Positions 1-19,159 of a stretch of DNA of 64,000 bases are shown in pieces. Within the stretch, counting starts at the first letter, position 1, and every line of letters begins with the position of its first letter. This stretch comes from Advenella mimigardefordensis DPN7 (GTDB lineage: Bacteria > Pseudomonadota > Gammaproteobacteria > Burkholderiales > Burkholderiaceae_B). A program made the position numbers and the translations under genes. The stretch covers positions 4,216,001 to 4,280,000 of the forward strand of contig NZ_CP003915.1 in NCBI RefSeq assembly GCF_000521505.1, given 5' to 3'. The notes under the pieces are model-generated. The model saw only the letters and a list, made by a program, of their open reading frames with translations. It searched no databases and was not told where the DNA came from.

Positions 1-1347
1 CACACCTGCTGCCAGCGCTGTCGCTGCAGCATTCAAGCGGTTGGCACGTTCGGGGCCCATGGTCATTTCATAATGCGCATCGCCCCAATAGTACAGATGA
101 TTGGCGAACAGATTGGCGCATACACCAAGGCTGGCCATGCGCCGAAACTGTGCCGTGCTGGCCATTTGGCAATGCTGCAGGGTATGTCTGTGGTCGCGTC
201 GCGGACGGTTGGCCAGCACGGCTTCCAGGGCGTCCAGTGCCACATCGGTCGCCTCGTCGCCATTGGTATGAATATGCACGGTCAGGCCGGCATCGTGATA
301 GGTTTGAATCAGCTCACGCAACTGCTGTGGCGGGATGACCCAGATGCCGTTTTCCTGTGCGCCCGCAGGCGGTCTGTAATAATATGGCCAGCGCAGCCTG
401 GCGGTAAAGCCCTGAATAGAACCATCCACGATCAGTTTGACAATACCAAAACTGAGTTTGTCTGAGTTGTGTGCGATGCTGGGCAAAACCCGGTCCAGTC
501 CCTTGCCCTCAGGGTCACGCAAGGGCGCATAAGCGGGGACCAAACGTAGCGGAAAAGTGGCGCCACCGGTGGTCGCTTCCAGACTGGCCAGCGTTTCTGC
601 ACTCAGGTCATTCACCAGGTCGGTTGCTGTAGTCACGCCGGCCAGTTGCGCCACACGTGCGAAATTCCAAATGCCATGAGTGGTTTGCCCTTCATCAAAA
701 TAGACGTTACCAATCTTGCGGAACACCAGATACATGGCAGCAAATTCCTGCAATTGGCCCGTCAGCCTGCCTGATGCGTCGCATTCAACGCCATCTATGC
801 CTGAATCGGTCGTAATGCCGGCCATCTGCAACATGGCCGTATTTACATTCATTAAATGTATACTGGCATGAAGTACCACTACCGGTCGACTGGATGACAC
901 CTGATCCAGATGACGGGTCGTCATTCGTTCTCCCTGGAAATAGATCGGGTCAAACCCCCAGGCACACAACGTTTTGTTCTGATCCGCCATGGCCTGTTCG
1001 GCCTCCTGCAATCGCGCAACGACGGCGTCCAGTGTTTTCAGGCCCTGCCACAAGCGTCCGTCCGGACCGCGCCTATCGTAAAAGCCTACATAGACAAAGC
1101 TCCACATACCACCTTCGAGCAAATGACTATGCCCTTCTATCATTCCGGGCATGATGTATTTGTCAGCAAACCGATCATCCACCACCGCCTTGCCCCAGCC
1201 CTGTAACGAGGCCAGATCGCCGGCCCCCAGAATCCGGCCGTCCCGTACCGCTACATGCGTGGCCCGTGGTTGCGCGGGGTTCATGGTAATAATGCTGCGC
1301 GCACGATAGATGCGGGTCTCGGCATTGTCCGACAGTGGTTGCGACAT
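1..1347 (-). CDS. Amidohydrolase family 3 protein (YtcJ-like), 3' end cut by the window edge
   Basis: This gene starts at ATG 1347 (minus strand) and stays open for 449 codons to the first base of the window, so its C-terminus lies outside. I translated it directly: an N-terminal beta-sandwich stretch (ETRIYRARSIITMNPAQP) leads into GHSHLLEGG near residue 70, the metal-binding HxH of the amidohydrolase superfamily. HIHTNGDEA and HTLQHCQ, near residues 360-395, are the further metal-binding histidines of the YtcJ/amidohydrolase 3 group. Members usually have about 540-560 residues. They hydrolyse amide or related bonds, but the substrate cannot be read from sequence. AGGAGGAATAAAC lies just before the start and serves as ribosome-binding site. 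It is transcribed divergently from xsc, which hints at, but does not prove, a role in sulfonate or amide nutrition. Confidence 0.85.
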   Translation of the reverse strand, partial: MSQPLSDNAETRIYRARSIITMNPAQPRATHVAVRDGRILGAGDLASLQGWGKAVVDDRFADKYIMPGMIEGHSHLLEGGMWSFVYVGFYDRRGPDGRLWQGLKTLDAVVARLQEAEQAMADQNKTLCAWGFDPIYFQGERMTTRHLDQVSSSRPVVVLHASIHLMNVNTAMLQMAGITTDSGIDGVECDASGRLTGQLQEFAAMYLVFRKIGNVYFDEGQTTHGIWNFARVAQLAGVTTATDLVNDLSAETLASLEATTGGATFPLRLVPAYAPLRDPEGKGLDRVLPSIAHNSDKLSFGIVKLIVDGSIQGFTARLRWPYYYRPPAGAQENGIWVIPPQQLRELIQTYHDAGLTVHIHTNGDEATDVALDALEAVLANRPRRDHRHTLQHCQMASTAQFRRMASLGVCANLFANHLYYWGDAHYEMTMGPERANRLNAAATALAAGV

Positions 1348-1537: not shown

Positions 1538-3349
1538 ATGAACACGTCAACACCCCAGCAATCTCCGCAGCAAGCCGTAAGCGGCGTACAAAAAATGACG
1601 CCATCAGAGGCCTTTGTTGAAACCATGGTCGCCAATGGCGTAACCAACATCTTCGGCATCATGGGCTCGGCCTTCATGGACGCCATGGATATCTTCGCCC
1701 CTGCAGGCATCCGGCTGATTCCCGTGGTCCACGAGCAAGGTGGCGCACACATGGCAGACGGCTATGCGCGGGTCAGCGGCCGCCATGGTGTGGTGATCGG
1801 CCAGAACGGCCCCGGCATCAGCAACTGCGTGACAGCGATTGCGGCAGCCTACTGGGCACACTCTCCGGTCGTGATGATCACACCGGAAACCGGCACCATG
1901 GGTATGGGCCTGGGCGGCTTTCAGGAAGCGAACCAGTTGCCTATGTTCCAGGAGTTCACCAAATACCAGGGACATGTCAATAATCCAAAACGCATGGCGG
2001 AATATACTGCCCGCTGCTTTGACCGGGCCCTGTCCGAAATCGGCCCGACCCAGTTGAATATTCCACGTGATTATTTCTATGGTGAAATCGAAACCGAAAT
2101 TCCGCTGCCGCAACGCCTGGACCGTGGCGCCGGTGGTGAAAAAAGCCTGAACGAAGCCGCCGAACTGCTGGCGACCGCCAAATTCCCCGTCATTCTTTCC
2201 GGTGGCGGCGTCGTGATGGCCGATGCAGTTGAAGAATGCAAAGCACTGGCCGAAAGGCTGGGCGCACCGGTAGTCAACAGCTACCTGCACAATGACTCAT
2301 TCCCCGCCAGCCACCCGCTGTGGGCCGGCCCGCTGGGTTACCAGGGTTCCAAGGCCGCCATGAAGCTGATCGCACAGGCCGATGTCGTCGTGGCGCTGGG
2401 TTCCCGTCTGGGCCCATTCGGTACCCTGCCACAGCACGGCATGGATTACTGGCCCAAAGAAGCGAAGATCATTCAGATCGATGCTGACAACAAAATGCTC
2501 GGCCTTGTGAAGAAAATTTCAGTTGGCATTTGTGGCGATGCCAAGGCTGCTGCTGTGGCTTTGCTGGAACGCCTGCAGGACAAGCAACTGGCATCGGACG
2601 CCAGCAAGGATGCGCGCGCCAAAACCATTGCCGATGAAAAAGCCGCATGGGAAAAAGAGCTGGACGAATGGACACACGAAAAAGATGCGTTCAGTCTGGA
2701 CATGATCGAAGAGGCTAAAAAAGAAGGGGGTAAATACCTTCATCCAAGGCAGGTATTGCGTGAACTGGAGAAAGCCATGCCGCAAGATGTCATGGTCTCT
2801 ACCGATATCGGCAATATCAACTCTGTGGCCAATAGCTATCTGCGCTTCGAAAAACCGCGCAGCTTCTTCGCCCCCATGAGTTTCGGTAACTGCGGCTACG
2901 CCCTGCCCACAATCATCGGCGCCAAAGTAGCGGCGCCTGAGCGTCCGGCTATCGCCTACGCCGGCGACGGTGCCTGGGGCATGAGCATGGTGGAAATCAT
3001 GACTTGCGTGCGACACGATATTCCGGTCACCGCAGTGGTCTTCCACAACCGTCAGTGGGGTGCCGAGAAGAAAAACCAGGTGGATTTCTATAACCGCCGC
3101 TTTGTTGCCGGTGAACTGGACAACCAAAGCTTTGCCGGCATCGCGCAAGCCATGGGTGCTACCGGGTTCGTGGTGGATAAGCTGGAAGACGTGGGCCCCA
3201 CCCTGAAAAAAGCCGTGGACATGCAAATGAACGAAGGCAAAACCTGCGTCATTGAAATCATGTGCACACGTGAACTCGGGGATCCATTCCGACGCGATGC
3301 GCTGTCCAAACCGGTGCGGTTCCTGGACAAATACAAAGACTACGTTTGA
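1538..3349 (+). CDS. xsc: Sulfoacetaldehyde acetyltransferase Xsc
   Basis: Xsc is a cytoplasmic thiamine-diphosphate enzyme that converts sulfoacetaldehyde plus phosphate to acetyl phosphate and sulfite, the C-S bond cleavage step of taurine and isethionate breakdown. The 603-residue protein has the usual length for the family. VVHEQGGAHMADGYAR places the cofactor-activating glutamate near residue 66, the central domain lies around residues 200-340, and the diphosphate-binding motif GDGAWGMSM...VVFHNRQWG begins near residue 475. Sequence resemblance to Xsc rather than acetolactate synthase is strong (for example MGSAFMDAMDIFAPAG and the C-terminal ELGDPFRRDALSKPVRFLDKY). GTGAGGA sits about 12 bases before ATG 1538. 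The gene pta follows after 27 bases, forming the xsc-pta unit typical of sulfonate degraders. The tau genes on the opposite strand would supply its substrate. Confidence 0.97.
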   Translation: MNTSTPQQSPQQAVSGVQKMTPSEAFVETMVANGVTNIFGIMGSAFMDAMDIFAPAGIRLIPVVHEQGGAHMADGYARVSGRHGVVIGQNGPGISNCVTAIAAAYWAHSPVVMITPETGTMGMGLGGFQEANQLPMFQEFTKYQGHVNNPKRMAEYTARCFDRALSEIGPTQLNIPRDYFYGEIETEIPLPQRLDRGAGGEKSLNEAAELLATAKFPVILSGGGVVMADAVEECKALAERLGAPVVNSYLHNDSFPASHPLWAGPLGYQGSKAAMKLIAQADVVVALGSRLGPFGTLPQHGMDYWPKEAKIIQIDADNKMLGLVKKISVGICGDAKAAAVALLERLQDKQLASDASKDARAKTIADEKAAWEKELDEWTHEKDAFSLDMIEEAKKEGGKYLHPRQVLRELEKAMPQDVMVSTDIGNINSVANSYLRFEKPRSFFAPMSFGNCGYALPTIIGAKVAAPERPAIAYAGDGAWGMSMVEIMTCVRHDIPVTAVVFHNRQWGAEKKNQVDFYNRRFVAGELDNQSFAGIAQAMGATGFVVDKLEDVGPTLKKAVDMQMNEGKTCVIEIMCTRELGDPFRRDALSKPVRFLDKYKDYV

Positions 3350-3376
3350 ACCAAGGCGTAACCTGAGGAACACATC

Positions 3377-4426
3377 ATGGGCGTTTTGCAACGTATCATC
3401 GAAACGGCGCAAGCCGCACCGAAACGCATCGTTCTGTGCGAGGCCCAGGATCCGCGCGTTCTTCAGGCTGCAGTACGCGCCCAGCAGGAGCGTATTGCCC
3501 GGATCGTGATGGTGGGCAATCCGGCGCAAAGCGTCGCGATCGCCAGCCAGCACGGTCTGGACATATCGAACATCATCTTTACCGACCCGGCAACCAGCGA
3601 AGCGCGTGAACGCTATGCACAGCAGCTGTATCGCTTGCGCGAGAAAAAAGGCATGACACTGCAACAGGCTCAACTGGCCGTTACTCAACCGCTGTGCTTT
3701 GCCAACCTTATGCTGCACATGGGGGATGCCGATGGCTCTGTCGCCGGCGCCGTTCACACAACTGCCGATGTGGTGCGTACCGCGCTACAGATAGTAGGCG
3801 CCAAAGCGTCTGCCGGCAGTATTGTGTCCAGCTTTTTTCTGATGATTTTTGAACACGAACACCATCCAACCAAAGGCGGTATGATTTTTTCCGATTGCGG
3901 TCTGGTGATTGACCCGGATGCGCAACAGCTGGCCCGTATCGCCCTTGACTCGGCCAAAAGTGCAAGTGCGCTGCTAGGCGAAGCGCCACGCATTGCCATG
4001 CTATCGTTCTCGACGCTGGGCAGCGCACAGCATGTGAACGTAACCAAGGTTCAGCAAGCAACTCAACTGGTCAGACAGGCACGCCCCGATCTGCTGATCG
4101 ATGGCGAAGTACAGCTGGATGCCGCCATTATTCCAGACATCGCATCGCGCAAACTCAGCGATTCGCAGGTCCATGGACGCGCGAACGTGTTGATTTTTCC
4201 GGACCTGAATGCGGGCAATATTGGTTATAAGCTGGCAGAGAGATTGGGCGGCGCCGTCGCTATCGGTCCGCTGCTGCAAGGGCTGAACAAACCGGCAAAT
4301 GATCTGTCACGGGGTTGCAATGCCGACGATGTTTATAATGTGATTGCCGTCACTTGCGTACAGGCGCAACAGCTGCAGGCGCAAGCCACAAGCGGCGAAT
4401 TAACGTCGGTGCCCGCCGGCCAGTAA
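3377..4426 (+). CDS. pta: Phosphate acetyltransferase Pta (short form)
   Basis: Pta converts acetyl phosphate, the product of Xsc, and CoA to acetyl-CoA and phosphate in the cytoplasm. The 349-residue protein is the single-domain PTA/PTB form, without the N-terminal regulatory domains of the enterobacterial enzyme. Family stretches include HMGDADGSVAGAVHTTADV (about residues 114-133), MIFSDCGLVIDPDAQQLA (about 170-188), and the C-terminal NVLIFPDLNAGNIGYKL and GPLLQGLNKPANDLSRG. GAGGA precedes the ATG. It forms an operon with xsc, and the pairing makes conversion of the C2 unit of taurine its likely main job. Its last 27 bases overlap the 3' end of the convergent CobT-like gene, so the two transcription units interleave at their ends. 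Confidence 0.95.
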   Translation: MGVLQRIIETAQAAPKRIVLCEAQDPRVLQAAVRAQQERIARIVMVGNPAQSVAIASQHGLDISNIIFTDPATSEARERYAQQLYRLREKKGMTLQQAQLAVTQPLCFANLMLHMGDADGSVAGAVHTTADVVRTALQIVGAKASAGSIVSSFFLMIFEHEHHPTKGGMIFSDCGLVIDPDAQQLARIALDSAKSASALLGEAPRIAMLSFSTLGSAQHVNVTKVQQATQLVRQARPDLLIDGEVQLDAAIIPDIASRKLSDSQVHGRANVLIFPDLNAGNIGYKLAERLGGAVAIGPLLQGLNKPANDLSRGCNADDVYNVIAVTCVQAQQLQAQATSGELTSVPAGQ

Positions 4427-6109
4427 TCGCGCAATATCATAAAAAACAGCAGGCGCCAGTGCCTGCTGCAGGTCTATAGCCAGGCTTCTGGGATAATACG
4501 CACTCAGATCCAGCCCAACACCCAGCCCCACAACATCTATTCCCTGCGCAATGGTTTGCCGCACAACCTGCTGCAGATGACTGGCCAGATAATAATCGTC
4601 ATTCACATATTGTGTGGCACTGTCCATCGGACAACCGTCAGACACCACAATCAGGGTGCGTCGTTTTACCGATTGCTCCTGCAGTCGCTGCGATGCCCAC
4701 AGCACGGCCTCGCCATCGACCCCTTCCCGATACAAATCATGCTTGAGCACAGCCGCGATATCCAGGCGCGCGCGTGACCAGCTCGTATCGGCCTGCTTAA
4801 ATAGCAAATGACATATTTCATTGAGACGCCCTGGGTGCGCCGGTTTGCCCTGGCGCTGCCAGTCTTTCATGGCGCGTCCGCCGTTCCAGGCACCGGTGGT
4901 GAAGCCCAGCAATTCAGTTTGCACACCGGCCATCCCCAAAGCCCGCAACAGGGTATCGAGCAGGACAGACAGGCGGCGCGCATGTGTGCGCATGGAACCC
5001 GAGCAATCGAGCAAAATCGTGACGGCCTGATCAACCCGCTCAATGACCTGATCCTGACGAAAGATGCGGGTTTCTGCCGGACTGGCAACCAACTGGCTAA
5101 GAACGCGCCCATCCAGAATGCCCTCTTCCTGACCGAATAGCCAGCCGTCCTCTTGCGGCATGCGAAAGAGACGGCGAAACAGTCTGGCCAGTTGAGCCAC
5201 ACCAATAGACAAGGAGGCACGATCTTCATCCATTTGCTGGCGAAACTGCCTGAGCTCGGCGAGCCTGACGCGCGAAGCAGCCAGTTCAACCCGATCGTAG
5301 CGACGAGTAAATACGCGATAACTGGCCTGATGCTGATCGAACACACGACTTTGCCCGAAAGGAGCAACGTCAAATCCATCTTCCGGTTGCGCATCGGGTG
5401 TAAGCAACAGGGAAAACAGCGCCCGGGGATTCTTATTGGCATCCTTCTGCCGACGATCCAGCGCCATTTCTGCGGCCAGATTCAGGCTGACCTTTTCAGC
5501 AAGGCGTGCAGCGACCTCCGCGTAAGCAGACTGATCATGACGCAGGCGACGCAAGGCATACAGTTCCCCACCTATTTCACCTGCCATACCGGCGCGCGTG
5601 GCCTCCAGCAAGTCCTGCTGGGCCTCACTCAGCGCACCGCCCGTGACCCGTGACCATACCGTTAGCATGACGGTAAACAGCAAAATACCCAGACTGGATT
5701 CGATGAGGGCCGAGTGTTGAAACGCCTCGGCCCAGGCACGGAAACGAGCCTGTACATTGGCGCGTACCCCCGGCCAGTCTGCAGCCGCCGTAGCCTCAAG
5801 GCGCACCTGTTCAAAAAAATCGTAAAGAAGGCGGGCCGTCTCGTCTTGCGGACACGCCTGTTCATAAATGACGGGATCGCAGGCAAGCAGCCGCAACGCC
5901 AGGCCATCGGCAACCGCACGAAAGTCGCGAAAGCGCTGATTATCAGGCTCCAGCCGCAGATGCGGCGCCAGCACCGGCACCAGGTTGTCATTCAGATACA
6001 GCCTGCCTTTCCGGAAATGCGCATTACTGCACCCGCTGATGGCACGCACAGCCGCACCACACAACTCGTCGGTGTGCTGCTGGAATATGCTGTGCGCGAT
6101 ATCGTTCAC
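4400..6109 (-). CDS. CobT-like von Willebrand factor A domain protein
   Basis: The 569-residue protein resembles CobT, the VWA subunit of aerobic cobaltochelatase. The C-terminal half carries a complete MIDAS motif: LLDCSGSMRTHA (DxSGS, about residue 367), a TTGAWNG segment and VVSDGCPMDS near residue 490. The N-terminal 330 residues are helical and charged. Translation starts at GTG 6109, which overlaps the stop of the upstream CobS-like gene as GTGA, so the two proteins are translationally coupled. CobT normally works with the AAA+ ATPase CobS and the large subunit CobN to insert cobalt into hydrogenobyrinic acid diamide. No CobN and no corrin biosynthesis gene occurs in this window. In this sulfonate locus the pair may instead act as a MoxR/VWA-type maturation chaperone. 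That reading is inference. Confidence 0.8.
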   Translation of the reverse strand: MNDIAHSIFQQHTDELCGAAVRAISGCSNAHFRKGRLYLNDNLVPVLAPHLRLEPDNQRFRDFRAVADGLALRLLACDPVIYEQACPQDETARLLYDFFEQVRLEATAAADWPGVRANVQARFRAWAEAFQHSALIESSLGILLFTVMLTVWSRVTGGALSEAQQDLLEATRAGMAGEIGGELYALRRLRHDQSAYAEVAARLAEKVSLNLAAEMALDRRQKDANKNPRALFSLLLTPDAQPEDGFDVAPFGQSRVFDQHQASYRVFTRRYDRVELAASRVRLAELRQFRQQMDEDRASLSIGVAQLARLFRRLFRMPQEDGWLFGQEEGILDGRVLSQLVASPAETRIFRQDQVIERVDQAVTILLDCSGSMRTHARRLSVLLDTLLRALGMAGVQTELLGFTTGAWNGGRAMKDWQRQGKPAHPGRLNEICHLLFKQADTSWSRARLDIAAVLKHDLYREGVDGEAVLWASQRLQEQSVKRRTLIVVSDGCPMDSATQYVNDDYYLASHLQQVVRQTIAQGIDVVGLGVGLDLSAYYPRSLAIDLQQALAPAVFYDIARLLAGGHRR

Positions 6110-7086
6110 GCCTGCAGGGTTCCCACAAAGGCTTCGGGCAACTCTTGTTCGAAACAGCGCTGATAATATTCGGCAATCAGCTCCTTCTCGGCATCATCAC
6201 ATTTGTTCAGAAATGACAGACGAAAGGCCAGGCCCGTATCGCCGAAGATCTGCCGGTTCTCGGCCCAGGTGATCACGGTACGCGGCGACATGAGCACGGA
6301 AATATCACCTGCCTCGAACCCCTTGCGCGTGAGGTTGGCCAGATCCACCATTTTTCGAATAGTCTGGCGCCCTTGCTCATTATCCATTTGTGGCACTCTG
6401 GCAGCCGTAATCTGTACTTCGTCTTCGGGCTGCAAATAATTCAGGGCAGCAACAATATTCCAGCGATCCAGCTGCGCATGATTGAGCGATTGCGTGCCGT
6501 GATACAGACCATTCAGATTGCCCAGCCCCAGTGTGTTGGCCGTTGCAAAAAGCCTGAAATCCGCATGCGGAGCGATACTGCGATTCTGATCCAGCAACAT
6601 GAAATGACCATTGCGCTCCAGAATCCGCTGGATCACAAACATGACATCGGGCCGACCCGCATCGTATTCATCAAAGATCAGTGCCATGGGTTGCTGTAGC
6701 GCCCAGGGCAGAATGCCTTCCTGGAATTCAGTCACCTGGCGCCCTTCGCGCAAAACAATGGTGTCCTTGCCAACCAGGTCCAGGCGGCTGATATGCCCGT
6801 CCAGGTTAACGCGCACACAAGGCCAGTTCAGTCTTGCTGCGACCTGTTCTATGTGTGTAGACTTGCCGGTGCCATGCAGTCCCTGAATCAATACCCGTCG
6901 GTTCTGGACAAAGCCGGCCAGGATGGCAAGGGTCACATCATGATTGAAATGATAGGCCGCGTCGATTTCCGGTACATGCTCAGTGGCATCGCAAAACGCA
7001 GGCACGGTCAGATCGGTATCAAGACCGAAGACCTGCCTGACGGAAATCTCGCGGATGGCGCGATGTGAGGATTGCTGAGTGGTCAT
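6106..7086 (-). CDS. CobS-like AAA+ ATPase (MoxR-type)
   Basis: The product is a 326-residue AAA+ ATPase closely resembling cobaltochelatase subunit CobS. The CobS-type N-terminus VFGLDTDLTVPAF is followed by Walker A GLHGTGKSTH (about residue 75), Walker B ALIFDEYDAG (about residue 136), and the sensor-1 stretch FRLFATANTLGLGNLNG. I chose ATG 7086 because GGAGG lies at the right distance; an in-frame start at 7125 lacks a good ribosome-binding site. The stop codon overlaps the GTG start of the VWA partner. CobS hexamers use ATP to drive metal insertion together with CobT and CobN, and MoxR relatives use the same ATPase/VWA design to mature other enzymes. With no CobN nearby, the target here is open. 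Confidence 0.85.
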   Translation of the reverse strand: MTTQQSSHRAIREISVRQVFGLDTDLTVPAFCDATEHVPEIDAAYHFNHDVTLAILAGFVQNRRVLIQGLHGTGKSTHIEQVAARLNWPCVRVNLDGHISRLDLVGKDTIVLREGRQVTEFQEGILPWALQQPMALIFDEYDAGRPDVMFVIQRILERNGHFMLLDQNRSIAPHADFRLFATANTLGLGNLNGLYHGTQSLNHAQLDRWNIVAALNYLQPEDEVQITAARVPQMDNEQGRQTIRKMVDLANLTRKGFEAGDISVLMSPRTVITWAENRQIFGDTGLAFRLSFLNKCDDAEKELIAEYYQRCFEQELPEAFVGTLQA

Positions 7087-7139
7087 GAGGGTTTGCCTCC
7101 GTGGCGGATCGCAATGGCAGACCACTGCGGGTGATTGAT

Positions 7140-7940
7140 TTACGCTGCCGCGTTAGCCTTTTCAATTTCTGCCAGCGAGTCTGCAGCACGCCGCAAGACC
7201 GGCAAAAACTCCAATGCCTTCTCACGGGTAATCCGCATAATGGGCGACTGCGCCGCAATACCCATATTGGACTTGCCGTTTTCTCCCGGTACCAGCACGG
7301 CAATACAAATGAGGCCGGGCAAAAATTCCTCGTTATCCATGGCATAGCCTTGCCGACGCACCTGTTCTATTTCCTGTTCAAGCGCGTCGTAGCGTGTCAG
7401 GGTATTCGGGGTATACTGTTCCAGCGGGGCCGCTTCCAGCAGGCGGCGACATTGTGAAGGCGACATTTGTGCAAGAAACAGTTTGCCGCTGGCCGAGCAA
7501 TGCAGCGGCACACGCGAGCCCGGGTGCAGATAGAACCGAAGCGGCGCGACCGTTTCCACCCGGTCCAGATACAATACCTCGTTGCCGGAGCAGGCGGTGA
7601 TGTTGCAACTTTCACCGATTTCCTCCACCAGGTGCCGCAGCACTGCCCGTCGTGAGCCGTGAATGGTGTTATTGAGTAGCAGTTTTTCCGCCATCTGGTG
7701 CAGGCGACGACCGGTGCTGTACTGCCTGCCATCGCCATCGCGAATAATCAGCCTTGCACTTTCCAGTTGTTGCAGCATACGATGCAGAGTGGGCTTGGGA
7801 ATACCCAGTTCCTCGCTCAGGCTTTGCAGTGAAAAATAACTGTCTTTTTCGGCAATGACCTCAAGAAGCGCAAATAGCCGTAGCGTTGGGGTATTGCCTT
7901 CGACACGTTCAGATTCGATCATATCCATAGAAATCGCCAT
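7140..7940 (-). CDS. IclR family transcriptional regulator
   Basis: This 266-residue protein has an N-terminal winged helix (about residues 18-85: LRLFALLEVIAEKDSYFSLQ, then LSEELGIPKPTLHRMLQQL) and the C-terminal IclR effector domain (about 90-260: LHPGSRVPLHCSASGKLFLA, GYAMDNEEFLPGLICIAV). IclR proteins bind a small metabolite and repress or activate neighbouring catabolic operons. The gene lies between the TauR-like regulator and the CobS-like gene, 53 bases upstream of the latter, all on the same strand. A perfect 23-bp inverted repeat overlaps its annotated start codon, which suggests autoregulation. In-frame ATGs at 7928 and 7922 are alternative starts, because no clear ribosome-binding site precedes 7940. 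A likely target is the adjacent CobS/CobT-like pair or xsc-pta; this is not shown by the sequence. Confidence 0.9.
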   Translation of the reverse strand: MAISMDMIESERVEGNTPTLRLFALLEVIAEKDSYFSLQSLSEELGIPKPTLHRMLQQLESARLIIRDGDGRQYSTGRRLHQMAEKLLLNNTIHGSRRAVLRHLVEEIGESCNITACSGNEVLYLDRVETVAPLRFYLHPGSRVPLHCSASGKLFLAQMSPSQCRRLLEAAPLEQYTPNTLTRYDALEQEIEQVRRQGYAMDNEEFLPGLICIAVLVPGENGKSNMGIAAQSPIMRITREKALEFLPVLRRAADSLAEIEKANAAA

Positions 7941-7962
7941 TTATTTCAATTATTGAAATAAA
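7940..7962. promoter_or_regulatory. Perfect 11-bp inverted repeat, candidate IclR operator
   Basis: TTTATTTCAAT and ATTGAAATAAA flank a single central T (7951), giving a perfect 23-bp dyad. It touches the first base of the iclR start codon, so a bound dimer would block transcription or initiation of iclR. This is the simplest candidate for an autoregulatory site. The half-site ATTTCAAT also occurs once upstream of tauX (15247-15254), without a second arm. Confidence 0.6.
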
Positions 7963-7986
7963 TTATATCAATAACCGGAATATTGA

Positions 7987-9552
7987 TCAACGTTTTCTTG
8001 ATGCTGCGGGAAAATGCTGTGCTACCAGTTCCGCCAGGGTTCTAATGCCAACTGCAATTTTCGGCTCGTCAATGGAACCGTAGCCAAAACGGATGTAGCG
8101 GCGGGCACTTTTGGACACCCGGCTGAAGAATACTTCCCCCGGTTCCAGAACAATGCCGTTTTGCAACGCCACTGCCGTGAGTGCCGTGGTGTCGATATGT
8201 TCCGGCGCCCTTACCCAGCAAAATGATCCGCCCGGCGAGGAGATAATCTGAAAGGTGGGCAGATACGTCATCAGCGCATCACGCAGTGCCCGTTCGCGCT
8301 GACCGTAGATTTGCGATTGCCTGCGCAGAAAAGACTGGTAATGGCCCAGCGAGACAAACAGCGCAAAGGCCCGCTGCAGGAAAGACGGCGCATGACGCAG
8401 CATCAGCCGTTTCAGTGCACGCAATTCGTCGATCAGCGGTTTGGGGCCAACAATGAACCCCAGCCGCAGTCCGGGTGCAAATGTTTTTGACAAACTACCG
8501 ACATAAATCACGCGCCCGTTCTGGTCCAGACTCTTGAGCGCCGGAAATGGTTTATCAATAAAGCTGTTTTCAAATTCAAAATCATCTTCAACAATCACGG
8601 TATTGCAGGCACCGGCTTTTTCAAGCAGCGCCTGGCGTCGTGCCATGGACATGGTCACGCCGGTTGGACATTGATGACTGGGCGTGACAAAAACCATATC
8701 CATATCAGCGGTGATCGCCTCGACGTCAACGCCCTCTTCGTTCACCGGTACCGGCACGACATGACGGGTACGGCTGGAGAAAATATTGCGCGCATCAGGA
8801 TAACCGGGCTCTTCCATACCCACTTTATTGCCCGGCCTGACCAATAGATCAGCCAGCAGATACAGCGCATGCTGGGCACCCACGGTTACCATGATTTCAT
8901 CCTTGGTCGCCGAAAATCCCCGTCGCGGCAGGACCTGATTCTGAATCGCGGCAATAATCTCCGGATCATCCATCATGATCAGGTCCTGAGCCCAGCTCCG
9001 GATATCGACAATGGACAGCGCCTTCATGCAGCACTCGCGCCATTCGGAAGTGGGAAATAGCGCAGGATCAAACTGACCATACACAAACGGATAAGGCTGG
9101 GTCTGCCAATTGGCCGGCTTGCGAATATTGCGTTGCTGGCTGGGCCTTGCGTGGATGCGTTCATGCCAGAAATCGGTTTCGTCATCGCTCCCAGGACTGG
9201 CGATAATATCCAGCATATTGCGCTGCTGCGCGGCCTGCCCTACGAAATGACCACTACGGTTACGCGTCACCAGATAGCCTTCACTAACCAGCTCCTGATA
9301 AGCAAACACAACTGTATTACGGGCCACTTTGAGCGTGTCCGACAGGAACCGGCTGGAAGGCACCGGCGCATCAGGCGTCAGATGCCCCTGCGTAATGGCA
9401 GCCACCAGCATCTGCCGGATCCGACCCTGCAGCCCCAGCGATTCACTGGTTTCACGAAACAGTTTTTCCCACAGCAACGCACTGAGGGCTGCCCGGCTGG
9501 GCGCGCTGACCTTTTCCGATCCGGGATGGACACGTTTTCTGTGATTATTCAT
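7987..9552 (-). CDS. tauR: MocR-type GntR regulator with aminotransferase-like domain (TauR-like)
   Basis: The 521-residue protein joins a GntR winged helix (about residues 20-95, with VPSSRFLSDTLKVARNTV) to a fold-type I aminotransferase-like domain (about 140-510). The PLP lysine is visible in YVGSLSKTFAPGLRLGF, and HQCPTGVTMSMARR belongs to the same fold. This is the MocR/TauR architecture. TauR of Rhodobacter capsulatus activates taurine utilisation genes, and the position next to tauABC supports the same role here. I prefer ATG 9552 over the longer in-frame start at 9630, since the extra 26 residues look unlike any family member. It lies 178 bases downstream of tauC on the same strand. 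A candidate operator is reported at 15283-15315. Confidence 0.85.
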   Translation of the reverse strand: MNNHRKRVHPGSEKVSAPSRAALSALLWEKLFRETSESLGLQGRIRQMLVAAITQGHLTPDAPVPSSRFLSDTLKVARNTVVFAYQELVSEGYLVTRNRSGHFVGQAAQQRNMLDIIASPGSDDETDFWHERIHARPSQQRNIRKPANWQTQPYPFVYGQFDPALFPTSEWRECCMKALSIVDIRSWAQDLIMMDDPEIIAAIQNQVLPRRGFSATKDEIMVTVGAQHALYLLADLLVRPGNKVGMEEPGYPDARNIFSSRTRHVVPVPVNEEGVDVEAITADMDMVFVTPSHQCPTGVTMSMARRQALLEKAGACNTVIVEDDFEFENSFIDKPFPALKSLDQNGRVIYVGSLSKTFAPGLRLGFIVGPKPLIDELRALKRLMLRHAPSFLQRAFALFVSLGHYQSFLRRQSQIYGQRERALRDALMTYLPTFQIISSPGGSFCWVRAPEHIDTTALTAVALQNGIVLEPGEVFFSRVSKSARRYIRFGYGSIDEPKIAVGIRTLAELVAQHFPAASRKR

Positions 9553-9730
9553 TGCTATTTTCTTGTAACAGGCCAGGGAGGGCGTAAGCCGACAGGCAGC
9601 ATTTGCGTCACTGTGCCGGCTTGCGATCATTTCGAATGCTATAGAAGCATGCGATTATCCCTGATTACGGACATGATCGCCATGCAAATGGCGGCTCATG
9701 TCGGCAATCTGCGGGAAAGACACTTTCGAT

Positions 9731-10558
9731 TTATACCTTGCCCTTCCATGGCACCATGGCCTTCTCTATGTAGCGAATCAGGGCATCAAAAACAAACGCG
9801 AAAAACCCGATAATGATGATACCCATGATGACGGTATCACTGGCCAGATACTGCGCTGCATTCAATACCATGAAACCCAGGCCGCGATCTGAAGCCACCA
9901 TCTCGGCAGCAACCAGTGTACTCCAGCCCACCCCGATACCAATACGCATGCCGGTAAAAATCTCCGGTAGGGCAGACTTCAGAATAACGTACCAGACAAT
10001 CTGCCGATTTGAGCCGCCCATGGAGTAGGCAGCATGGATCTGTTCCATGGATACCGATTTGACGCCGGCTCTGGCGGCAATCGCCATAGGGGCAAAGATA
10101 GCCAGATAGATCAGAAAAATTTTGGGAAACTCGCCGATACCGAACCAGATGATAACCAGCGGCAAATAAGCCAGCGGAGGCAGTGGCCGGTAAAACTCGA
10201 TCACCGGGTCGAACAGCCCACGCGCTACCCGATTGACCCCCATCATGATACCCACCGGTACGGCCGTCAGCAGCGCCAGAAAGAACGCCGAAAATACCCG
10301 CGTCAGACTGGCAACGGTATGCTCGATCAGTGTCGCATTGGCAATGCCATCTGTCATACCAACGATGAACTTGTTATAAACCGCCGCAGGCGATGGCAGA
10401 AACAGTGGCTTGACCCAGCCAAAGTACGTAACAATGGACCAGATCACCAGCAATGAAATCGCGGTTGAAATACTGATGAACACACTGGCGCCGGCACCCG
10501 GGGCGCCATAAACCTGCCCCGGTACGGCAGCCGATCTGCCGAACAGTTTATTAAGCAT
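9731..10558 (-). CDS. tauC: Taurine/sulfonate ABC transporter permease TauC
   Basis: TauC is the inner-membrane permease of the taurine importer. From ATG 10558 the product has 275 residues with about six hydrophobic segments (for example ISTAISLLVIWSIVTYFGW and IIIIGFFAFVFDALI) and the BPD_transp_1 coupling region around YSMGGSNRQIVWYVILKSALPE (about residues 160-182), the EAA loop that docks on the ATPase. GAAGGAGG precedes the chosen start. An in-frame start at 10609 would read through tauB and lacks support. The first eight bases overlap the end of tauB, which indicates one operon tauABC. TauC rather than SsuC is favoured by the taurine genes around it; the substrate cannot be proven from the permease alone. 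Confidence 0.92.
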   Translation of the reverse strand: MLNKLFGRSAAVPGQVYGAPGAGASVFISISTAISLLVIWSIVTYFGWVKPLFLPSPAAVYNKFIVGMTDGIANATLIEHTVASLTRVFSAFFLALLTAVPVGIMMGVNRVARGLFDPVIEFYRPLPPLAYLPLVIIWFGIGEFPKIFLIYLAIFAPMAIAARAGVKSVSMEQIHAAYSMGGSNRQIVWYVILKSALPEIFTGMRIGIGVGWSTLVAAEMVASDRGLGFMVLNAAQYLASDTVIMGIIIIGFFAFVFDALIRYIEKAMVPWKGKV

Positions 10559-11363
10559 GATGGCCTCCTTCACGTTCGTCGCTATAGATGATGTTAAGCA
10601 CGGTCTCACGCATACGGATGAAGTCGGGGCTCGATTTAATTTCCCTGGCGCTTTGGCCTGCCAGAAACGCCCGATTGAATGACAGATCGTAGGTATTCGT
10701 AATACGTCCGGGTCGTGGCGACATCACGATCAGCTTGGAGCCAAGAAAGAGCGCCTCTTCCACACTGTGGGTAATGAAAAAGAACATTTTGTCCGTTACG
10801 TCCCAAACCTTCAGCAACAGCTCCTGAATGGTTTCCCGCGTTAACGCATCCAGTGCGGCCATGGGTTCATCCATTAACAACATGGCCGGATCGCAGGTCA
10901 GGATGCGGGCGATGCCCACCCGCTGCTGCATCCCGCCGGAAAGCTGATAAATCATATGTTGATGAAAGTCCTTCAGGCCCACCAGTTCCAGATTGCGTGC
11001 AGCAATCTCGTGACGTTTGGTCTTCGGCACGCCCTGCAGTTTCAAACCGAATTCGGTGTTGTCGATAACATTGAGCCACGGCAGCAACGCATGTTTTTGA
11101 AACACTACGCCACGATCAGCGCTGGGGCCCGATATCGGTTCGTTGCCCAGCATAATCGTGCCGGACGAGGGTGACATGAACCCGGCCAGCAGATTCAGAA
11201 AGGTGGTCTTGCCGCAGCCCGAAGCGCCGAGTGCTACCACGAACTCGCCACGATTAATGGTGAGGTTGACATCCTTGAGCGCGACCACCCGGTCATTCTG
11301 CCGAATTCCGGGATACACGACGTTGACGTCTTTGACATATAAATTCTCGGCTACTGTTTGCAT
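10551..11363 (-). CDS. tauB: Taurine/sulfonate ABC transporter ATP-binding protein TauB
   Basis: TauB is the cytoplasmic ATPase of the taurine importer, 270 residues from ATG 11363. It has Walker A GASGCGKTT (about residue 46), Q-loop VVFQKHALLPWLNV, the signature LSGGMQQRVGIAR (about 142), Walker B MLLMDEPMAALDALTR and the switch histidine in FFITHSVEEALFL. The start follows GGAGG at eight bases; an upstream in-frame TTG at 11378 overlaps that Shine-Dalgarno and is less likely. It lies 74 bases after tauA and overlaps tauC by eight bases. Length and motif spacing are normal for the nitrate/sulfonate/taurine ATPase group. Confidence 0.94.
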   Translation of the reverse strand: MQTVAENLYVKDVNVVYPGIRQNDRVVALKDVNLTINRGEFVVALGASGCGKTTFLNLLAGFMSPSSGTIMLGNEPISGPSADRGVVFQKHALLPWLNVIDNTEFGLKLQGVPKTKRHEIAARNLELVGLKDFHQHMIYQLSGGMQQRVGIARILTCDPAMLLMDEPMAALDALTRETIQELLLKVWDVTDKMFFFITHSVEEALFLGSKLIVMSPRPGRITNTYDLSFNRAFLAGQSAREIKSSPDFIRMRETVLNIIYSDEREGGHHA

Positions 11364-11437
11364 TGCGATTGCCTCCAACTACACTTCGGTTCTGTGAAAG
11401 ACGGGCTGGCCACCTTTCACGTTTATGACAGTTGCAA

Positions 11438-12472
11438 TTACTTTTGTCCGGCAGCCTGCTCTGCCCAACTGCCATTCACAAAGCCGCTATAGTCCGGAAG
11501 CACCGAGTCAATCTGTTTTTGCTCTTTAAGAAATGCAGCACTTTCGGTCAACGCTTTGACTGCGCCGGAATCGGCACCACCGCCCAGCCAGGTATTGGAG
11601 GCCATCTCAGCCGCGGTCGGAAAGACCAGCATTTTCATCGCTTCCAGAATATCTTTGGGCTCACCGCCAATCATCTGAGTAATACCTTTGACCTCGGGAC
11701 TGTCCTGTTGCCACTGCGCGCCATGCTGTTTATAGTCGTCATAGGCCTGTGCCAGCACCTTGGTGTAGGCCTGCATGAATTTTGGATTTTTCTGTGCCCA
11801 GTTTTTATCTACGACAATACCGTCAAACGTCGGCACACTGGCCTTGCCCACTTCCTCAGAATCCGTCAGGACAGTGCCATCCTTAAGCAGCGTGGTCAAT
11901 GCAGGAGGCCATACATAAGCAGCATCAATATCACCGCGCTGCCATGCGGCTACGATTTGCGGCGGCTGCATGTTCAAAATACGTACATCGCGCGGATTCA
12001 TTTTCCACACTTTGCTGAGCGCGACCAGTAAATGGAAATGGGAGGTGGACACAAACGGTACGCCAATGCGCTTGCCCTTCAGGTCTTCCGGCTTGCTGAT
12101 GCCCGACTCCTTGCGAACGACCAGCGCTTCGGAATGACCGATGTTGTCAAGAATCCAGAACAGCTGCATATTCACACCGCGCGTTGCCGCCGCCGCGATC
12201 CCGGTAGAACCCAGCACCCCGATAGGAATGCCGCCGGACGCCAGTGCGCTGGAAATATCCCCTGCCGAACTGAACTGGCGCCATTTAACTGTATAGCCTG
12301 CAGCCTTTAGCGGTTCGTCGAATTTTTTCATGGCAATGGCAGATACATACGGCCCGACGATCTGTTGGTAGCCAACGGTGACTTCTTCCTGCGCCGCTGC
12401 GTGGGTTGACCAGGCGAGCGTCGCCACGGTTGCCGAGGTGCACAACACTGTTTTCAGAAATATGTTTTTCAT
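11438..12472 (-). CDS. tauA: Taurine-binding periplasmic protein TauA
   Basis: The 344-residue precursor begins with a Sec signal peptide (MKNIFLKTVLCTSATVATLA... cut near AAAQ-EEVTV) and continues as a class II nitrate/sulfonate/taurine binding protein (EVTVGYQQIVGPYVSAIA, SGGIPIGVLGSTGIAAAATRG, ESGISKPEDLKGKRIGVPF). It would capture taurine in the periplasm and pass it to TauBC. ATG 12472 follows GTGGAG; the in-frame start at 12484 adds only four residues. A 12-bp perfect palindrome TACAACGTTGTA lies at 12497-12508, just upstream, and could be a regulatory site for tauABC. The gene follows the orphan binding-protein gene with a gap of 163 bases. Confidence 0.93.
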   Translation of the reverse strand: MKNIFLKTVLCTSATVATLAWSTHAAAQEEVTVGYQQIVGPYVSAIAMKKFDEPLKAAGYTVKWRQFSSAGDISSALASGGIPIGVLGSTGIAAAATRGVNMQLFWILDNIGHSEALVVRKESGISKPEDLKGKRIGVPFVSTSHFHLLVALSKVWKMNPRDVRILNMQPPQIVAAWQRGDIDAAYVWPPALTTLLKDGTVLTDSEEVGKASVPTFDGIVVDKNWAQKNPKFMQAYTKVLAQAYDDYKQHGAQWQQDSPEVKGITQMIGGEPKDILEAMKMLVFPTAAEMASNTWLGGGADSGAVKALTESAAFLKEQKQIDSVLPDYSGFVNGSWAEQAAGQK

Positions 12473-12496
12473 GTTTGACTCCACGAAGGGGTGGTT

Positions 12497-12635: not shown

Positions 12636-13448
12636 TCAGCGAAGCATCAACTGTGCCGGATCGGGTGCCACGCCAAACCACTTGTGATAAATGCTGGCGT
12701 AGCTCCCTGTTTCGATCACCTTGCGCAGTGCCGCGTTAACCCGCTGCGTCAGCGCACTGTTCCTGGGCATCGCTATTGCATAGAAATGATTGGGTGTGGC
12801 TACGGTGTCTGCTACCTTTACCAGACCCTGCCCTTTGTTCTGGCTGTAATAGCGCACATTTGCCGTGTCATGAACCAGCGCGTCCAGCCTGCCGGCGGCC
12901 ACTTCAAGATACGGGAAGCCGGCATCCATGTTCTGAAAATAGGTCACTGTCGCCGGCGGTTGCAAGCGATTCACATAATCTGCCGCATCGGTACCGCGCT
13001 TGACACCAACCCGTTTACCGGCCAGGTCGGCAAAGCGATCAATAGCGGTATTGTCATTGGCAACGACCAGGGAAATATCACTGCGAAAATAAGGATCAGA
13101 AAAATCCATGCTGCGTTCGCGATCCTGCGTAATGGTGATGCCGGCAATGGCCATATCCACTTTGCCGGCAGTCAGATTCGCAAAGATGTTGGAAAAATCC
13201 ATGGGCAGCAGGGTATAGGACACGCCCATTTCGTGTGTGATAAGGTCGAGCAGATCCATATCAAATCCCACGTATTTTCCATTCTCGCGGAACTCGAATG
13301 GCAAATAGGCGGTGTCGGTGGCAACCGTCAGCGTTTCAGCCTGCGCGGCCCGGATACCTGGCGGCATCGCGGCATAAAGTATCAGAAAAGCGCAGGCAGC
13401 CAGTGCCAGGCTGATCGAATTGCGACGTGAACGGTGCCGAAAATCCAT
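12636..13448 (-). CDS. Orphan amino-acid-type periplasmic binding protein (SBP family 3)
   Basis: The 270-residue product has an N-terminal signal/anchor segment (SISLALAACAFLILYAAMPP, mature start near QAETL) followed by a complete family 3 solute-binding domain: VATDTAYLPFEFRENGKYVG, MDLLDLITHEMGV, DMAIAGITITQDRERSMDFS and VGVKRGTDAADYV. These proteins bind polar amino acids or related zwitterions for ABC importers. No cognate permease or ATPase of that family is nearby; the only transporter genes are tauBC. Its start codon overlaps the stop of the TauY-like gene by one base, so it belongs to the tauXY operon. It may bind taurine or another amino sulfonate, or act as a sensor. The substrate is unknown. 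Confidence 0.88.
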   Translation of the reverse strand: MDFRHRSRRNSISLALAACAFLILYAAMPPGIRAAQAETLTVATDTAYLPFEFRENGKYVGFDMDLLDLITHEMGVSYTLLPMDFSNIFANLTAGKVDMAIAGITITQDRERSMDFSDPYFRSDISLVVANDNTAIDRFADLAGKRVGVKRGTDAADYVNRLQPPATVTYFQNMDAGFPYLEVAAGRLDALVHDTANVRYYSQNKGQGLVKVADTVATPNHFYAIAMPRNSALTQRVNAALRKVIETGSYASIYHKWFGVAPDPAQLMLR

Positions 13449-14818
13449 CAGATCACCTCATCTCTCAGGTAATACCAGTGATAGAGCATGGCCTGTCCGA
13501 GACGCCGAAAAGGCGCGAACAGATGCCCCGGAAGCGGCGAATTGTAGATGGGCAGGTCCCATTGCGCTCCGTCCTGTCCCACAATACGCTGCGCCAGACG
13601 TCGCCCTGCCCATGCAGAAGAAGACACGCCATTCCCACCATAGCCGAAGGAGTAATACAGCGACAAAGACGGGTCGGGCTGCACAATCCGCGGCATCATA
13701 TCGTGGCTGACATCAACCCACCCGCTCCAGTTGTATGCAATGGGCACACCTTCGAGCGACGGGAACTTGCGGTACAGGCCTTTTTTTAGCAAATCCAGAT
13801 GTTTGGGATTGCCCGCATCCTTACCGGTAATCGCACTGCGACTGCCAATTTGCACTGAACCATCAGGCAGCAGCCGATAATAAAAACGCAGCGTCCGGGT
13901 ATCGGTAATAAACACCGTCGATTTCAGACCCGCCTCGGCCCGCTCCTGTGCTGTCAGTGGCCGGGTCACCATGGAATTGGACTGGATCGGCATCAGTTTG
14001 GAGCGTGTCGTCGTGTGTACACCCTGCGTGGTATAACCACCCGTGGCAAATGCCACCTTGCGCGCCTTCACAATACCGCCAGGCGTATGCAAATGGTGCA
14101 GGCCATCACGCGTTTCCACTTTCAGGACCGGACTGGACGTGTGCACCTTAACGCCCAGTTGCCGTGCGCGTCGCAAATAACCAAAAGCCAGCTTCAGGGG
14201 ATGCACGCCAACACCCTGAGGTTCCCACAGTGCCGCCCTGGCCTCCTGATCGTTCACATATTCTTCACGCAGCTCTGCCTGGCTGAGCATGCGCGTCTTG
14301 TAGCCAAAGACTTCATTCATCACCCGGCTTTCATTGCGCAGAAAAGCAATTTTCTTGTCGCGATGCGCAGTGTAAAGGTGACCACCCGTTTGCGCATCAC
14401 AATCGAATTGCGCGACCAGTGACTCCCAATACTCGAAGCCCGAACGTATTTCGGCATCCAGTCGTTTGGCCGTTTGCTCTCCCCATTTGGCAATCCACTG
14501 GGAACGATACAGGCGACCCATCGCATTCTGTCCCTGTCCGCCATTGCGACTGGTGCATCCCCATGCAGCGGCGTTTGCCTCCAGCACCACGACCTGTGCG
14601 TGATAGTCCTGAGCCAGATGCAGCGCCGTCGACAGACCGGTAAAACCGGAACCCACCACGACCACATCTGCAATCAGCCCGTCGAGTGCCGGGCCATCAT
14701 CGGGTGGCGGTTCACCTGCCGTGGCCACCCAGTACGTAGGGGCGTACTGCTGGCTCTGGGCCGGCGCATCGGTAAGCGGATCGAACAGCGGATCGTATGC
14801 GTGCATCAAAGTAGCCAT
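13448..14818 (-). CDS. tauY: FAD-dependent oxidoreductase, probable taurine dehydrogenase large subunit (TauY-like)
   Basis: This 456-residue protein belongs to the DAO/DadA flavoprotein family. The dinucleotide-binding motif VVVGSGFTGLSTALHLA lies near residues 50-66, and ANAAAWGCTSRNGGQGQNA matches the substrate/FAD region of glutamylputrescine-oxidase-like members. The C-terminus GYGGNGVSSSAWAGRRLAQ carries the second FAD-contact motif. Taurine dehydrogenase oxidatively deaminates taurine to sulfoacetaldehyde and ammonia and passes electrons to a cytochrome. Location between the TauX-like gene and tauABC, with Xsc close by, makes this the best candidate for that step, and no taurine-pyruvate aminotransferase is present. 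Other amine oxidases of the family have the same motifs, so the symbol rests on context. It lies 14 bases after tauX. Confidence 0.75.
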   Translation of the reverse strand: MATLMHAYDPLFDPLTDAPAQSQQYAPTYWVATAGEPPPDDGPALDGLIADVVVVGSGFTGLSTALHLAQDYHAQVVVLEANAAAWGCTSRNGGQGQNAMGRLYRSQWIAKWGEQTAKRLDAEIRSGFEYWESLVAQFDCDAQTGGHLYTAHRDKKIAFLRNESRVMNEVFGYKTRMLSQAELREEYVNDQEARAALWEPQGVGVHPLKLAFGYLRRARQLGVKVHTSSPVLKVETRDGLHHLHTPGGIVKARKVAFATGGYTTQGVHTTTRSKLMPIQSNSMVTRPLTAQERAEAGLKSTVFITDTRTLRFYYRLLPDGSVQIGSRSAITGKDAGNPKHLDLLKKGLYRKFPSLEGVPIAYNWSGWVDVSHDMMPRIVQPDPSLSLYYSFGYGGNGVSSSAWAGRRLAQRIVGQDGAQWDLPIYNSPLPGHLFAPFRRLGQAMLYHWYYLRDEVI

Positions 14819-14832
14819 GATGATGCTCCCGC

Positions 14833-15225
14833 CTATTTTTCGACCACAATCGCAGGACGATTCTTGCGAAAGGCATTCTTGACGAGAATTTTTCCGTCCC
14901 TGAACGTGAACAGATCCACCATATTGGCTTCAATCCGTGCGCCGTCCTTTTGCGTACCGGTAAATGTCGTTTCCGAAACGCCACGGTCGCCACTGATCCA
15001 GTGTCGGCCGTTGCGCCATTGTGCATCCGGAATATTTTCCCAGGCCGCCTGAAAAGCCTTTCTTACCGCTTCCCTGCCTTCGATCCGGTTACCGCAAACC
15101 TGATCGCCAGCCACGGTCTCAAAAACACAATCGTCATGCATGAACGACATCAGCGCTTCAATGTCATGGTCGTTCCACGCCTGGGAAAAGGCTTCAAGGG
15201 TCTGGATGTTTACCGCGTTATTCAT
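14833..15225 (-). CDS. tauX: SnoaL/NTF2-fold small protein, probable taurine dehydrogenase small subunit (TauX-like)
   Basis: The 130-residue protein has the SnoaL/NTF2-like pattern: LEAFSQAWNDHDIEALMSFM, CVFETVAG, IEGREAVRKAFQAAW and the C-terminal strand VDLFTFRDGKILVKNAFRK. The start at 15225 is preceded by AGGAGA. The small subunit of taurine dehydrogenase, as I recall it, is an NTF2-like protein encoded next to the flavoprotein, and the 14-base gap to the flavoprotein gene here fits that. The alternative is an ordinary SnoaL-like protein of unknown function. It is the first gene of the tau operon and carries a candidate TauR operator and a CTTTGAT/ATCAAAG dyad (15240-15259) upstream. Confidence 0.65.
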   Translation of the reverse strand: MNNAVNIQTLEAFSQAWNDHDIEALMSFMHDDCVFETVAGDQVCGNRIEGREAVRKAFQAAWENIPDAQWRNGRHWISGDRGVSETTFTGTQKDGARIEANMVDLFTFRDGKILVKNAFRKNRPAIVVEK

Positions 15226-15494: not shown

Positions 15495-16760
15495 TCAGTC
15501 CAGCGTATCGTTCCAGATATTTTTCGCCCAGGAACGCGCATCGGCGCCTTCCTCTTCGGATGGATGCGCGGACAGGCCGCCGCCTTCGGCCGAGATCATG
15601 TCCTTTTTTTCCGCGTCGTAGCGGTAGACATTCGCTACATGCATAGCCGACGTGTCATCCACATAGCTGTAGCAGGTATTGGCAAATACCGGCAGTGGAT
15701 CAGGCCGGGCATCGGCCAGTCGGGCAATCATGCTGCTGGCGCATACCTTGGCCTGGGAGTTGGCGATATGCGCCGATTTGGGCAGACCCGAGTCGACCGA
15801 ATCACCCAGCAAATGAATCCCCGGTACCTTGCGTGATTCATACGTCACAAAATCCACATCGCACCAGCGTTCTTCGCTGTTGGCCAGGCCGGTATCCAGC
15901 GCCAGCTGGCCGGCAGTCTGGGGCGGGATCACATTCAATACGTCGGTCTTCCAGGTATCAAAAACCGTTCTGACGGTTCCGGTATCAACATCAATGGCCG
16001 CCAGCTCGCTGTTGGGCTGGTAGTCGATCAGACCGGGGTACTGCTCGGCCCAGTTGCGTTCAAACAGCGCCCGCTTGGAGGTGATTCCAGGATTGGCATC
16101 CAGCACCAGCACCTTGCCCGTAGGGTTATGCTGTTTGAGATACCACGCCACCTGACAGGCCCGCTCGTAGGGCCCGGGAGGACAGCGATACGGGAGTGGC
16201 GGCACCGTAATGGCAAACACGCCACCCTTGCGCATCCCCTGCAATTGTGAGGCCAGCAATTGGGTCTGCGGGCCGGCCTTCCAGGCATGAGGGACGCGCT
16301 CCCTTGCCGCATCGGTCTGTGCCATGGGCAACTGCGAATAATCAAAACTAATGCCCGGAGCCATGATCAGATAATCATAAGGTATCCGCCCGGTTGCCGT
16401 ACGCAGTTGCTTTCTGTCCGCGTCGACAGCCAGCACTTTTTCCTGGCGCACGGTCACGCCATGCTTGCGGGTCAGGTTTTCGTAGGAGTGGGAAATAGCG
16501 GGCAGCTGTACTGATCCACCCAGAACCAAATTGCTGGTGGGGCAGGACACAAACTGCGCATTGGGTTCGATCAGCGTCACCGGCAAGTGATACTGGCTCC
16601 ACATGCGCAGATACTTTGCCGCTGTCGCACCGGCAAAGCCTGCGCCCACAACAACAACCCGGGCCTGCCGCAAGCCGCGCGCGGCGCTCGCGCTCAATGG
16701 CCAGACACTGGTGCCCAGCCAGGCGGCTCCCAAGGTGTTAATAAATTCCCTGCGCTTCAT
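15495..16760 (-). CDS. fccB: Flavocytochrome c sulfide dehydrogenase, flavoprotein subunit (FccB/SoxF-like)
   Basis: The 421-residue precursor starts with a twin-arginine-type leader (KRREFINTLGAAWLG) and a FAD motif VVVGAGFAGATAAKYLR near residue 35. The family stretches VSCPTSNLVLGG (redox cysteine) and PLPYRCPPGPYERACQVAWY (second cysteine) are present, and the C-terminal FCSD domain ends with FANTCYSYV. FCSD oxidises sulfide or a protein-bound sulfane in the periplasm and passes electrons to a cytochrome c. The small cytochrome gene lies 91 bases upstream and a SoxYZ carrier two genes further upstream, so a sulfur-oxidising unit is likely. The substrate may be sulfur carried on SoxYZ rather than free sulfide; this is inference. 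Confidence 0.9.
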   Translation of the reverse strand: MKRREFINTLGAAWLGTSVWPLSASAARGLRQARVVVVGAGFAGATAAKYLRMWSQYHLPVTLIEPNAQFVSCPTSNLVLGGSVQLPAISHSYENLTRKHGVTVRQEKVLAVDADRKQLRTATGRIPYDYLIMAPGISFDYSQLPMAQTDAARERVPHAWKAGPQTQLLASQLQGMRKGGVFAITVPPLPYRCPPGPYERACQVAWYLKQHNPTGKVLVLDANPGITSKRALFERNWAEQYPGLIDYQPNSELAAIDVDTGTVRTVFDTWKTDVLNVIPPQTAGQLALDTGLANSEERWCDVDFVTYESRKVPGIHLLGDSVDSGLPKSAHIANSQAKVCASSMIARLADARPDPLPVFANTCYSYVDDTSAMHVANVYRYDAEKKDMISAEGGGLSAHPSEEEGADARSWAKNIWNDTLD

Positions 16761-16851
16761 CGTTGTTGTCCCATCGGTATACTGGAATGCTGCACGCCGT
16801 GATGGCTTCCGTTATTTATTGCAATTGCAATAGTGCAAGAAAATACGCCAA

Positions 16852-17181: not shown

Positions 17182-17189
17182 TCTCAGCC

Positions 17190-18919: not shown

Positions 18920-19159
18920 GTGAACCTCCTTAATGAACATGTTCCGTTCTCTGTATTTCACCTCTATGCGCTTGGCGCGTGAGGTACTTTTTTATAGTGT
19001 GATTTTATTGCGGTTCCAGACGGGCCGGACCGTGATTATTATGACAATATACATCTAATTTCCAAGGGGAAACAGGAACGTACAGATTGCAGGAAAAAGA
19101 GGAAAAATAACGGAGAACACGTGCGGGGTGTTATTGCATTTGCCGCGCCCATGGTCTGA

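Follow-up and report, generated by a model that had tools for sequence, protein, structure and literature searches.

NorQD installs the non-haem iron of nitric oxide reductase, and CobS and CobT belong to the aerobic cobaltochelatase CobNST. Sulfoacetaldehyde acetyltransferase (Xsc) is a thiamine diphosphate (ThDP) enzyme that cuts the carbon-sulfur bond of sulfoacetaldehyde to give sulfite and acetyl phosphate, freeing sulfite from taurine and, via sulfoacetaldehyde, from isethionate. We describe here a CobS/CobT-like pair encoded near xsc in a 64,000-nucleotide stretch of Advenella mimigardefordensis DPN7 (NZ_CP003915.1, positions 4,216,001 to 4,280,000; hereafter the window). A further comparison is offered by the rubisco activase CbbQO, which one account (PMC4660213) presents as an AAA+ and VWA pair encoded with its enzyme, its metal ion-dependent adhesion site (MIDAS) engaging an acidic residue of the target while ATP use remodels the inhibited enzyme. 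We find that the Advenella pair accompanies a single Xsc clade across many genomes, and put at roughly 60% the probability that it is a dedicated NorQD/CbbQO-like AAA+/VWA remodelling machine for that clade. On genomic evidence, Xsc is the most likely target; what is new is the target and the context, the kind of machine being known.

The CobT-like VWA protein (569 residues; 4400..6109, minus strand) comprises a helical N-terminal domain, a short linker and a C-terminal VWA domain with a MIDAS. The CobS-like AAA+ ATPase (326 residues) is encoded at 6106..7086 on the minus strand, with a GTG further upstream, at 7125, also listed as its start. The two genes overlap in a minus-strand GTGA at 6106-6109, as an earlier note on this DNA had described. 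CobNST is the nearest sequence family: Pfam matches are CobS_N (45 bits) and AAA_5 (43.6 bits) for the one protein and CobT_C (148 bits) and CobT (81.6 bits) for the other, and the best sequence matches among solved structures are CobS and CobT chains. The pair differs from CobNST in that both proteins score below the curated NCBIfam equivalog cut-offs, with 490.6 bits for CobS (TIGR01650, cut-off 558.55) and 284.2 bits for CobT (TIGR01651, cut-off 759.05). The proposed target, encoded by xsc at 1538..3349 on the plus strand, passes the cut-off of its own family, TIGR03457 (1076.1 vs 676.4 bits). In a predicted model of the CobT-like protein, the best fold match over residues 257-565 is the NorD VWA domain; no CobT chain appears in the fold-match lists, though CobT chains match by sequence.

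The earlier note's description of intact Walker and MIDAS motifs is borne out across relatives. MIDAS residues D368, S370, S372, T405 and D491 are invariant in all 35 aligned xsc-linked CobTs, as are Walker-A residues G69, G72, G74, K75 and S76 (T73 nearly so) and Walker-B residues D139 and E140 in 29 of 29 CobS proteins. Within Advenella, comparison with four relatives gives a ratio of nonsynonymous to synonymous substitution of 0.05-0.08 (CobT) and about 0.03 (CobS), low values that indicate purifying selection on both genes within the genus. CobS was found in 38 of the 39 fetched stretches with this CobT, the exception (L041) stopping at a contig end. Three features of NorQD- and CbbQO-type pairs are present: an AAA+ protein with intact Walker A and B motifs, an adjacent VWA protein with a complete MIDAS, and a constant genomic partner, the Xsc clade. 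An acidic CobT linker was considered as a clean marker of the type and rejected; the aspartate plus glutamate fraction of the richest 60-residue stretch is lower in xsc-linked CobTs (mean 0.22, n = 36) than in canonical ones (0.43, n = 24), a tendency with overlapping ranges.

The association with Xsc was found in searches from both directions. In genomes found via xsc, this CobT type occurs in 31 of 33 with the window's Xsc clade and in none of the 43 that carry other Xsc. In the other direction, 36 of the 37 genomes and plasmid records found via CobT hold the window clade (all counted without duplicates). A clear gap separates xsc-linked CobTs, which score at least 393 bits, from the next, at most 232 bits. 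Among 101 relatives, the CobT of the pair is present in 22 genomes (an additional match of 18.7 bits was dropped) and a strong xsc in 25: CobT accompanies the window Xsc type in 21 of 21 and other strong xsc genes in 0 of 4. One of the 21, G007, has a partial xsc, matched over the first 331 model positions only (L028, about 6.3-7.5 kb) beside intact CobS and CobT genes; this is either a broken gene or an assembly fault. Across 300 genomes of the order, xsc exceeded the cut-off in 34 and 1000 bits in 11, including all 10 CobT genomes, and the other 23 were without CobT. Bit score alone is an unsafe marker of the clade, since the xsc of alphaproteobacterial genome G541 reaches 1016 bits while being 46% identical to the window's and falling in the alphaproteobacterial clade. 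In 398 genomes of the phylum, all 7 with this CobT also have this Xsc, and CobT never exceeds 232 bits in the 20 genomes with another xsc.

When 97 genomes from the order to which G527 belongs were searched for xsc alone, four were positive, namely G527 (already known), G737, G782 and G778; in G737 and G782 the loci hold CobS (72%) and CobT (43-44%) 5.4-5.9 kb from xsc. CobT also matched 85 plasmid or chromid records, of which the best seven (41-46% identity) all hold the window Xsc clade; these seven and one distant locus, L052, were examined. On Paraburkholderia phymatum pBPHY01 (L050, 6941-15422), one CobS-CobT pair lies between two xsc copies. A protein search scored 7997 candidates, of which 2471 were CobT relatives at E 1e-20 or better; the matches listed include proteins of Janthinobacterium, Halomonas, Azoarcus and Pusillimonas at 46-50% identity, and most are named cobalt chelatase or cobaltochelatase CobT-related protein. 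Across the genomes and plasmid records with both genes, the linkage to xsc that the earlier note saw in the window is conserved far beyond the genus. With CobN absent from the host genome as well (see below), the note's proposal survives the refutation by gene content that it had set for itself, and its interpretation is supported in part. The observation is confirmed, and it reaches wider than the window alone could show.

Both trees support a discrete grouping. In the Xsc tree, rows from pair genomes fall in one clade with support of 100/100, and 36 of its 37 rows come from pair genomes, the exception being G198 (one record supplies two of the rows, and for three rows the pair lies on another stretch of the genome). 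A 35-row subset including three later rows gave 99/100 for 22 rows, 20 of them with the pair. In the CobT tree, 31 xsc-linked rows lie on one side of a 100/100 branch, found in all 200 bootstrap trees, with 17 rows of canonical type and 2 further orphans opposite, which sets the Advenella-type CobT apart from that of CobNST. The tree was built after dropping five near-duplicates from the 36 xsc-linked rows, leaving 31, and used 17 of 24 canonical-type rows, with the short row L047 omitted; canonical here means the common, alphaproteobacterial type, assigned by CobT type and not by CobN presence.

The arrangement of the genes is far from fixed. Xsc is present in 35 of the 39 CobT stretches, convergent with the pair in 24 and divergent in 11, with pta (phosphate acetyltransferase), IclR, TauE-like or other genes in between. 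For the four stretches without Xsc, xsc lies 28 kb (G214) or 21 kb (G656) away on the same contig, in G042 it is on a different contig from CobT, and the search of G046 gave no strong xsc. Orientation is thus variable and spacing ranges from 1 to 28 kb, and it is because the genes stay together despite these changes that we argue for a functional connection.

One alternative is that the pair acts on a different taurine-branch enzyme, TauXY or Pta, and accompanies Xsc only through joint transmission of the genes; window-type Pta in 31 of the 39 stretches and a TauY-like gene in 30 lend it some weight. However, a PTB-type phosphotransacylase replaces window-type Pta near xsc at L148 (6040-6957) and L149 (13215-14186) with both pair and Xsc kept, TauXY-like genes stand beside other Xsc clades at L169 and L174 where the pair is absent, and the pair tracks the Xsc clade, with 0 of 43 other xsc genomes holding it. 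We consider this explanation unlikely, and reject both Pta and TauXY as the constant partner. Since orientation and spacing vary, the Pta type is exchanged and TauXY occurs without the pair, the constant partner is Xsc. The earlier note had suggested either Xsc or the flavoprotein dehydrogenase as target; the co-occurrence fits the former, and the TauXY loci without the pair speak against the latter. It is quite improbable, in our estimate, that the pair was inherited with the xsc cluster without acting on Xsc, whether as a passenger or with some general function in sulfonate stress (sulfite or metal stress, for example). A single clade on both trees is compatible with a single origin, and two members of the Xsc clade are without the pair (G198) or show none on the contig covered (G778), but the pair has been kept through rearrangement, at distances of up to 28 kb, and under purifying selection.

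Several observations weigh against a dedicated Xsc machine. G198 has the window Xsc clade, yet its complete gene content includes no CobT of this type, and G778 shows no pair on its 24-kb contig (16 of 24 kb scanned), so members of the clade have no strict need of the pair. G046, the twenty-second CobT genome and a fragmented one, has CobT and pta together on an 8-kb contig and yielded no strong xsc. Outside the genus, CobT evolves much faster than its proposed target (36-50% vs 82-89% identity). Given one clade on both trees, the pair and Xsc may have joined once and spread by descent and transfer, so that the counts cannot be treated as independent. Genes of the CobN family are somewhat commoner in genomes with the pair (5/10 vs 62/290 others, p = 0.048, a value that assumes an independence the genomes do not have). 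The NorD fold match reports first and last aligned residues only, so that the finger of NorD is not proven in the CobT-like protein.

The homology to CobS and CobT would suit a cobaltochelatase working with a CobN encoded elsewhere, and a CobN-family gene does occur in 5 of the 10 order-set pair genomes. It is absent from the other five, and the host genome contradicts such a role directly. The earlier note had seen no CobN in the window, and this extends to the whole genome (4.76 Mb, 2 contigs, scored 100% complete), where PF02514 (CobN/ChlH) gave 0 candidates while a control search was positive in 5 of 14 genomes. CobQ (TIGR00313) likewise gave no match, against a positive control in 13 of 14, other corrin pathway genes not being searched, and the genome has a single CobS with no second copy. 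Given these three absences, the pair is not a B12 chelatase in this host. Together with scores below the equivalog cut-offs and a CobT outside the canonical clade, this makes the cobaltochelatase explanation very improbable: it is ruled out for the host and does not hold generally. Equally improbable is that the pair loads metal into an amidohydrolase beside xsc, with a CobW-type GTPase as metallochaperone. An amidohydrolase-like gene does adjoin xsc in the window (1-1347, partial), at four other Advenella loci (L024-L027, about 14.7-17.4 kb) and in Caballeronia (L046, 11627-14244), accompanied at the latter five by a CobW-type GTPase, and a distant CobST pair lies inside a urease cluster at L052. 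The amidohydrolase is nevertheless found in 6 and CobW in 7 of the 39 stretches, a co-occurrence on which we rejected them as constant partner, and L164 has both genes at an other-clade xsc locus without the pair.

Returning to a remodelling machine for Xsc, we infer physical contact between pair and enzyme, and each of the steps that follow, ligand clearing or cofactor loading included. CobS would form the ATPase ring, on which the VWA part of the CobT-like protein would dock via a finger-like extension in the fashion of NorD. The MIDAS metal would then grip an acidic surface residue of Xsc, for which E139, D354, E392, E396, E526, E550 and D561 are candidates as sequence positions that mark the clade against 12 betaproteobacterial Xsc; alphaproteobacterial Xsc share E526 (8/8) and D354 (5/8). 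ATP hydrolysis would strain Xsc and open its active site, which would most likely either release a dead-end ligand or ThDP adduct, in the way that CbbQO acts on rubisco, or admit Mg-ThDP, as NorQD admits iron. The pair would on the first outcome be an Xsc activase, a repair machine that prises the ThDP enzyme open to expel the dead-end adduct or ligand, a proposal we make tentatively and which may well prove wrong. The likeness to both systems has limits. The proposed target is a soluble ThDP enzyme with no metal site implicated, unlike that of NorQD, and the N-terminal domain and ATPase of the pair are of the CobT and CobS families. Compared with CbbQO, the target family is different, no inhibitor is known for Xsc here, and CbbQ is only a distant sequence match.

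If correct, CobS/CobT-type motors would have been re-aimed from corrin metalation to enzyme repair. Dependence of one Xsc clade on an ATP-driven helper would explain genes annotated as cobalt chelatase in many bacteria, would caution against false B12 predictions from such annotations, and would offer an AAA+/VWA machine whose action on a soluble ThDP enzyme is directly open to experiment, with close Xsc relatives lacking such a partner as a simple control. In the open-access literature we found no report of a link between the pair and Xsc and no paper naming both sulfoacetaldehyde acetyltransferase and cobaltochelatase, and where the papers examined mention taurine as well as cobS and cobT, the passages are unrelated; prior notice in subscription papers, classical Xsc biochemistry included, is possible.

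The gene list agrees with the earlier note's placement of the pair beside xsc-pta and the tau genes. The pta gene (3377..4426, plus strand) is convergent with the CobT-like gene, their 3' ends overlapping by 27 bp. Upstream of CobS lie an IclR-type regulator (7140..7940, minus strand), a relative of which at 55% identity or more occurs in 29 of the 39 stretches, and a MocR-type regulator with GntR and aminotransferase domains, presumably TauR (7987..9630, minus strand). These are followed on the minus strand by TauC-, TauB- and TauA-like taurine ABC transporter genes (9731..12484; TauC and TauB named from translation), a family 3 solute-binding protein (12636..13448), an FAD (DAO) oxidoreductase that we take to be TauY-like (13448..14818) and a small, presumably TauX-like protein (14833..15225); Caballeronia relatives of the last two are annotated as FAD-binding oxidoreductase and NTF2-family protein. 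From the TauX-like gene onwards these form one co-directional run, of which CobS and CobT are the end, with xsc and pta convergent to it. Sulfur-oxidation genes lie near the taurine cluster (15495-18961), encoding a flavocytochrome c sulfide dehydrogenase flavoprotein, a metallo-beta-lactamase-fold protein and a fused SoxY-SoxZ.

Other CobST pairs were met in the course of the searches. At L161 (G225, 2546-12061), in a genome without a CobN-family match, another CobS-CobT pair (31% CobT) adjoins an M24 metallopeptidase-like gene, an FAD protein and a lyase. On Pandoraea oxalativorans plasmid pPO70-1 (L052, 4132-11590), the distant pair, whose CobT is 30% identical, comes immediately after ureG in a cluster with ureC, the beta and gamma subunits, ureD and a UreE-domain protein, UreF lying about 108 kb away on the same plasmid; this urease locus hints that CobST-like pairs have been recruited more than once.

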